From Pigoraptor vietnamica (Eukaryota; Opisthokonta; Filasterea): a stretch of 21,098 nucleotides of DNA. Below are positions 14,725-15,894 of this stretch, in pieces. The notes beneath the pieces were generated by a model. The model ran no database searches, was not told the origin of the DNA, and saw only the letters and a list, made by a program, of their open reading frames with translations. Position numbers and translations under genes: made by a program. The stretch is from contig CALSCQ010000879.1 of assembly GCA_943704525.1 (NCBI GenBank), forward strand, positions 1 through 21,098, given 5' to 3'. The stretch's first letter is position 1. The number at the start of each line of letters is the position of its first letter.

Positions 14725-15894
14725 ATGCCCATCGACCTTGCCTACAGGAGTGCGCGAAGGCGGTCTTCCAGCCAACCCTATGTTCTCCCACGCGGTTCTC
14801 CCGTCGGTCGCCCACTTCCTCCCCCGTCTCCCATACAGAGCAACGTGCTGCCGCAGCCGCGCATCCACGCAAATCAGCGCGCGTTGTCGCGAGAGGGAAT
14901 GACGGACGGCCCCATTCTCGGACGCCAGTCGCCCCCCGCTGCCCAGCCCGATCACGTGCACCGGCGCCCCGCGTACTTTGTCGAGACGAACATGGACGGC
15001 GAGGACGTGGAGGAAGACGACGACGCGACGGACGATGATGAGGACGGGATGGCGTTTGCGGAGAACGCGGCTGCTGCTGCTGCGGCGGCGGCGGCCTACT
15101 TTCAGGCGAAGACGGTGATTGCGCTCAAGTGCAACTACTGCCGCAAGTTTGTCACGGCGCGCGCCATGCGCGCAATTCTGCTGGCGGACACGAAGGTCGA
15201 GCTCTTCTCCACGGATCACCCGCCCGTCAGGTAAGAATTCTGCGATCAAAGCAGTAGTGCGTTGTATAGTATGTCGCGGGTGTGCCCTCGTACATTTGCG
15301 GTTCGAGTGCTCATACTCTGCGGTGTACTTGTGTCACAGCTCTGTCCAGCTTGTCGACGAAGACTATTCGACATCGAACTGCAACTGCAAGATCAGGGAC
15401 GTCGGCTGCCTCGGATGGTGCGTGTCCTCGTATGCCCATTGTGTGCGCTGTGTTTGCGTGTGCCCGTGTCCCATACTGCCTATGTGTGTCGAATGTGTGC
15501 GAGCGCAACTGGGTATCGCCTGTTACCACTATATGCCAACGTTGGATTGTCACGCCTATCGAACAGTGGCAACGTTATCGGCTATCACGTGACGCGCCCT
15601 TGCCAGTCGTGCCTCTCGTCGTGCAACAACGGCCACTTTTGGATGTTCCATTCGGACGCCGTCACCCCCATTGAGCGGCTAGACCCCTCTGGTGAGCAAA
15701 GCACAGCGATCTTTTGTGCTTGTGCGTGTTTCACGTGCGTGTCTAGTGCAATTATTGACACAACCGATTCTCTTTGTGGCCTCGCAGGCAAGCGCCTTCT
15801 GCTGTGGGAGTGCATCGGCGGACCGCAGACGAACCGCGACGTCGCCCGGATGTCGTTTGGAGTACCCGAGACTATGGAGCGGATTTGCCGGTGA
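14725..15894 (+). CDS. FAM72: FAM72 family protein
   Basis: Exons 14725-15230, 15340-15417, 15567-15691 and 15788-15894 give 271 aa. From about residue 132 the protein follows vertebrate FAM72A closely: [64 protein letters not shown], then RLDPSG and LLLWE. The paired cysteines suggest a zinc-binding fold. In mammals FAM72A binds the nuclear uracil-DNA glycosylase UNG2 and lowers its level, altering uracil repair; whether that holds in this protist is unknown. The animal protein is about 149 aa. This one has an extra N-terminal region of about 130 residues that is Arg/Ser/Pro-rich, then acidic ([16 protein letters not shown], about 93-108), then ten alanines in a row. It is divergent from the Myb gene and convergent with LEO1. 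The start follows a probable 5' UTR intron. Confidence 0.92.

Follow-up and report, generated by a model that had tools for sequence, protein, structure and literature searches.

A FAM72 gene with a probable N-terminal extension in a genome that also encodes a UNG2-type UNG and CTLH ligase subunits

The window analysed here, a stretch of 21,098 nucleotides, is contig C344 of an assembly that totals 32.5 Mb over 1,395 contigs. It carries a four-exon gene of the FAM72 family whose product keeps the conserved residues of that family. Judged by the size of the assembly, its short introns and its gene content, the source is probably a protist. The same genome encodes a FAM72 paralogue, a UNG with a PIP box, four CTLH subunits and a muskelin-like exon, that is, most of the components known by name from the FAM72A-muskelin-CTLH-UNG2 route of mammals. 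According to the reports on the mammalian system, FAM72A forms the bridge that connects UNG2 with muskelin and the CTLH ligase, and UNG2 is degraded in consequence (PMC12223117, PMC12687426, PMC13061415). Since the named mammalian parts co-occur and the residues implicated in UNG2 binding are largely kept, the function that appears most likely by analogy is that of a CTLH substrate adaptor with UNG as its likeliest single substrate, a reading to which we would give slightly less than an even chance.

The four exons of the window gene (Table 1) join in phase without internal stops and encode 271 amino acids. The three introns, of 109, 149 and 96 bases, are all GT-AG, with donors GTAAGA, GTGCGT and GTGAGC and acceptors ACAG, ACAG and GCAG. 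In hmmscan the profile PF14976 (YPEH2ZP, the FAM72 family) matches residues 125-247 with an E-value of 6.2e-58 and 195.5 bits, the curated cut-off being 27 bits; the match is far beyond chance, and a six-frame search of the genome recovers two exons of the gene. This match, the conserved blocks and the alignment to human FAM72A bear out the initial annotation, which had recognised a FAM72 homologue keeping the cysteine pattern of the family. By local alignment the window protein is identical to human FAM72A at 63 of 118 positions (53.4%) and to the paralogue at 80 of 141 (56.7%), and the paralogue to human FAM72A at 69 of 138 (50.0%). Among these three sequences 57 columns are invariant, including, in the numbering of the paralogue, nine Cys (C37, C40, C84, C86, C93, C96, C108, C111 and C115), three His (H103, H119 and H124), the FWMF block (F120-F123) and the Trp corresponding to human W125 (W144). 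That the Cys-rich core should belong to another zinc-binding family is vanishingly improbable: the window protein does match the Yippee-Mis18 profile at a sub-threshold level (E 0.38, 11.4 bits), but the E-value of PF14976 is lower by over 57 orders of magnitude, and the protein contains the FAM72 blocks. When FAM72 was searched against the PDB by sequence, the matches up to E 10 comprised two chance matches and no FAM72 chain, and searches for relatives with two short peptide patterns gave 19 matches in viral contigs and 24 in bacterial and archaeal genomes, none of them confirmed.

Table 1. Location of the features discussed; positions without a contig name refer to the window.
Feature	Location	Strand	Description
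Putative 5' UTR intron	14614..14717	+	GTGCGT...CGCAG; splice-site resemblance only
FAM72 exon 1	14725..15230	+	start ATG, extension (aa 1-124), first part of the Cys-rich core
N-terminal extension	14725..15096	+	basic/Pro-rich, then acidic, then Ala10
FAM72 exon 2	15340..15417	+	aligned with the paralogue and human FAM72A
FAM72 exon 3	15567..15691	+	includes CGNVIGYHV
FAM72 exon 4	15788..15894	+	LLLW block (Trp = human W125), stop TGA 15892-15894
Second FAM72	C187, match 11105-11506	minus	PF14976 E 2e-55, 187.4 bits
RMND5	C212		best PDB match RMND5A, E 3.6e-36
MAEA	C464		best PDB match, E 1.4e-50
GID8	C987		best PDB match, E 1.8e-46
RanBP9	C657		best PDB match, E 7e-79
Muskelin-like N-terminal exon	C878:10777-10851		25 residues, 265 bases from contig end

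The genes that surround FAM72 in the window were assigned from joined pieces of their exons. On the plus strand, at about 5500-10900, lie exons of an MCM helicase, MCM2-like by eye (PF00493, E 2.4e-63, two joined pieces), and at about 19000-21000, toward the contig end, those of a neutral ceramidase (PF04734, E 3.4e-36). The minus strand carries a Myb/SANT-domain protein at about 11400-13500 (PF00249, E 5.7e-13) and Leo1 of the Paf1 complex at about 16200-18500 (PF04004, E 3e-30).

The paralogue, located on contig C187, is intronless and encodes 171 residues, only 24 of which precede the PF14976 match. It shares with the window copy the PF14976 core, the nine Cys, the three His, FWMF and the Trp, but differs from it in a short N-terminus that holds the sequence RRRLHF and has neither an acidic nor an Ala tract. 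A contaminant origin of this contig was considered and rejected as unlikely, because its base composition agrees with that of the window (GC 0.592 and 0.575, respectively; tetranucleotide correlation 0.97). The segment RRRLHF, residues 9-14 of the protein (L001:1459-1974, minus strand), resembles a cyclin-docking RxL motif, and could link this copy to the cell cycle.

The N-terminal extension had been described in the initial annotation as an acidic and poly-Ala addition of 130 residues. It measures 124 residues and is open, compositionally distinct and absent from the paralogue; its translation from position 14725 is likely. Residues 1-86 are basic and Pro-rich with a net charge of +8, residues 87-112 are acidic with a net charge of -14, and the run of ten Ala starts at residue 115. 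The first 112 residues fall on the disordered side of the charge-hydropathy boundary and the core on the other side, and besides PF14976 a single Pfam match, 4HBT at 109-140, overlaps the extension, at a level below cut-off (E 0.24). Codon usage was evaluated with a model built from 1,277 codons. In its own frame the extension scores 0.10 bits per codon; the part of exon 1 that encodes the core reaches 0.62, positions 14062-14724 upstream give -0.41, and the other frames of the extension reach 0.02-0.03. The first half scores 0.03 in the sense frame; in the second half the sense frame, at 0.16, is exceeded by one antisense frame, at 0.25. Of 492 open windows of 124 codons, which overlap and were taken from six other contigs with coding ones included, 19% score as high as the extension. 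Overall, these composition data lend the coding nature of the extension moderate support.

The alternative is that this region is untranslated or that translation begins later, at M59, M90 or M109, yielding a compact FAM72 like the paralogue. In-frame ATGs do exist at 14899, 14992 and 15049, and the weak codon bias, with its antisense frame above the sense one, and the short N-terminus of the paralogue are compatible with such a start. Moreover, the FAM72 frame is also open upstream, over the 270 codons from 13915 to 14724, so that openness alone is uninformative for the extension; the upstream frame was rejected as further coding sequence, the codon score over 14062-14724 being noncoding-like. 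A later start is nevertheless unlikely, as third-position G+C rises at 14725 from 0.53 upstream to 0.73 in the extension, and the bases preceding the ATG (AAG) are the same in this gene and in UNG. In addition, 7 bases separate the end of the putative 5' UTR intron from the ATG, and splicing out this intron would eliminate the only ATG found in 14301-14724, which lies out of frame at 14679.

The UNG gene was located with TIGR00628, which finds four exon matches on contig C42. It has eight exons separated by seven GT-AG introns and encodes 350 residues, with a catalytic domain that matches the UNG chains of the PDB at an E-value of 1.8e-92. A search of the genome with PF03167 (UDG) gave no UNG match though the gene is present; therefore, absences obtained by profile search of this genome mean little. 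Residues 4-11, QASLRAFF, form a PIP box (QxxLxxFF), as is also present in human UNG2, and the RPA-binding helix of the human protein has a look-alike here in the segment SPLTQEQIDRMERNRLEALARRQ. The chance of finding a PIP motif in a tail of 20 residues lies between 1.5e-5 and 2.9e-4, depending on composition and on motif strictness, and is about 1.5e-4 for a tail of 126 residues. PDB searches with the UNG N-terminus gave one chance match with a query of 85 residues and none with a query of 33. Hence, the UNG of this genome, with a catalytic domain and an N-terminal PIP box, is of the UNG2 type, and the glycosylase whose presence had been proposed as a check of the uracil-repair link was found. 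In mouse UNG2 the region bound by FAM72A is reported to lie, together with the PIP box, in the isoform-specific N-terminus (PMC10810282).

A search of the genome for the CTLH domain gave seven matches on four contigs, and RMND5, MAEA, GID8 and RanBP9 were named by the best PDB match of hand-joined exon pieces (Table 1). The muskelin-like exon reached 23.7 bits (E 0.0011) in the genome search, below the PF06588 cut-off of 27, and 27.5 bits when scanned alone; its best PDB matches are muskelin chains (E 1.7e-4). Muskelin has discoidin, LisH, CTLH and kelch domains; the candidate comprises 25 residues of the N-terminal domain, the rest was not found in the genome search, and muskelin is the least secure of the pathway parts in this genome. 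A survey from 2013 inferred the CTLH core, muskelin excepted, to be ancestral to eukaryotes, and found muskelin restricted to opisthokonts (PMC3797097). Because of that restriction the exon may hint at the position of the organism; conversely, if the muskelin were real and the organism not an opisthokont, the finding would bear on the opisthokont-only statement (PMC3797097).

The co-occurrence of these parts is itself weak evidence, because the CTLH core is inferred to be ancestral and the PIP box of UNG needs no explanation beyond PCNA binding. At three of five positions that vary among the human paralogues (82, 99 and 125) the window copy keeps the FAM72A residue, and its residues at 94 and 122 are Ser and Leu, respectively; the C187 copy keeps the FAM72A residue at four (82, 99, 122 and 125), with Ala at 94. 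These are the positions at which human FAM72A-D differ according to one study, in which only FAM72A bound UNG2 (PMC12223117). FAM72B, on the other hand, is reported elsewhere to bind UNG (PMC11377751). UNG binding by the human paralogues is therefore disputed, and the argument from the five positions is weakened accordingly. A modelling paper attributes importance for UNG2 binding to FWMF and W125 (PMC8616359), and FWMF and the matching Trp are retained in both copies. Two further points weigh against the reading as a CTLH adaptor for UNG, the changes at two of the five positions in the window copy and the representation of muskelin by one exon of 25 residues.

The same data may be read in a different manner, with FAM72 as a CTLH adaptor for a substrate other than UNG and the regulation of UNG as a later use in animals or vertebrates. 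In one of the studies cited above muskelin, but not UNG2, was bound by human FAM72B-D, which shows how easily the two activities separate (PMC12223117), and the window copy is changed at 94 and 122. We regard this possibility as unlikely, given that both copies retain G82, G99, W125 and FWMF and that the UNG of the genome has a UNG2-like tail. A further alternative would be that FAM72 is mainly a chromatin- or RPA-associated factor of replication stress, whose acidic arm aids contacts with RPA or chromatin, without degradation of UNG. The segment of UNG resembling the human RPA-binding helix would agree with it, as would reports that human FAM72B binds RPA and UNG and that FAM72 proteins gather on chromatin in replication and damage (PMC11377751). 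The C187 copy has no acidic arm, however, and this alternative is considered quite improbable.

The adaptor function would be exerted as follows. The FAM72-family zinc protein would bring its substrate to the muskelin-CTLH (GID) ubiquitin ligase. By analogy with mammals, its core would dock on muskelin and hold UNG by the N-terminal tail, where the PCNA-binding box also lies. UNG would then be ubiquitylated and removed outside S phase. Two genes could provide the adaptor, the compact intronless copy and the window copy with its disordered arm, and the basic, acidic and poly-Ala segments of the arm would probably act in localisation, in regulation or in the binding of an extra partner. The binding, the degradation and its place in the cell cycle are inferred here, as is whatever the arm may do.

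The presence of FAM72, UNG and CTLH parts in one genome suggests that the pathway could predate animals. The initial annotation had raised the prospect that the link of the family to uracil repair is that old; with a UNG2-type UNG, four CTLH subunits and a muskelin-like exon co-encoded the link is plausible. A broader proposal, which must be deemed rather doubtful, is that destruction of UNG by FAM72-muskelin-CTLH is an old eukaryotic limit on uracil repair outside S phase that was in place before animals arose and was afterwards put to use in antibody diversification, and that FAM72 was duplicated in this lineage, one copy gaining a disordered arm with separate control. PF14976 has members outside animals, and a first protist FAM72 is therefore not claimed. 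New here are the second, intronless FAM72, the UNG with a PIP box and an RPA-helix-like segment, the CTLH subunits and the muskelin-like exon. Literature searches for FAM72 with evolution and protist, for FAM72 with amoeba and for YPEH2ZP gave no papers, and among the matches listed for FAM72A, orthologs and Dictyostelium none concerns FAM72A; in the literature cited here FAM72A is studied in mammals, in relation to antibodies, cancer and brain. With FAM72 in two copies, a UNG of the UNG2 type and the CTLH ligase in one probable protist, the purpose that the pathway served before adaptive immunity becomes open to a direct test in a unicellular organism.

As to the known systems, FAM72A has been grouped by predicted fold with YPEL5/Moh1 and other Yippee/CULT proteins (PMC12687426, PMC11377751); in sequence, the match of the window protein to these families is below threshold. 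A structure prediction of the C187 protein made without an alignment had a mean pLDDT of 29.6, too low for assessing a beta-tent fold of the Yippee/Mis18 type. The Yippee-Mis18 search of the genome gave seven matches, three of which exceeded the cut-off; they lie on contigs C204 and C423 and are by eye a CULT-like and a Mis18-like protein, and thus no clear YPEL was seen in this search. The region C204:1741-2040 encodes a CULT-like domain (GYAWTIAVCGRCFAHLGWMF), cereblon-type by eye, with 31.7 bits for PF03226, and its protein matches FAM72 weakly (probability 5.2%, E 0.0075). The nearest known counterpart, human and mouse FAM72A (Ugene), shares with the window gene the Cys-rich core, W125 and a count of four exons, the number reported for human FAM72A (PMC7957592). 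The window protein departs from it in an N-terminal extension of 124 residues, against about 7 residues in FAM72A, and the genome in possessing a second, intronless copy, whereas one paper states that non-human species express just one FAM72 orthologue (PMC8616359).
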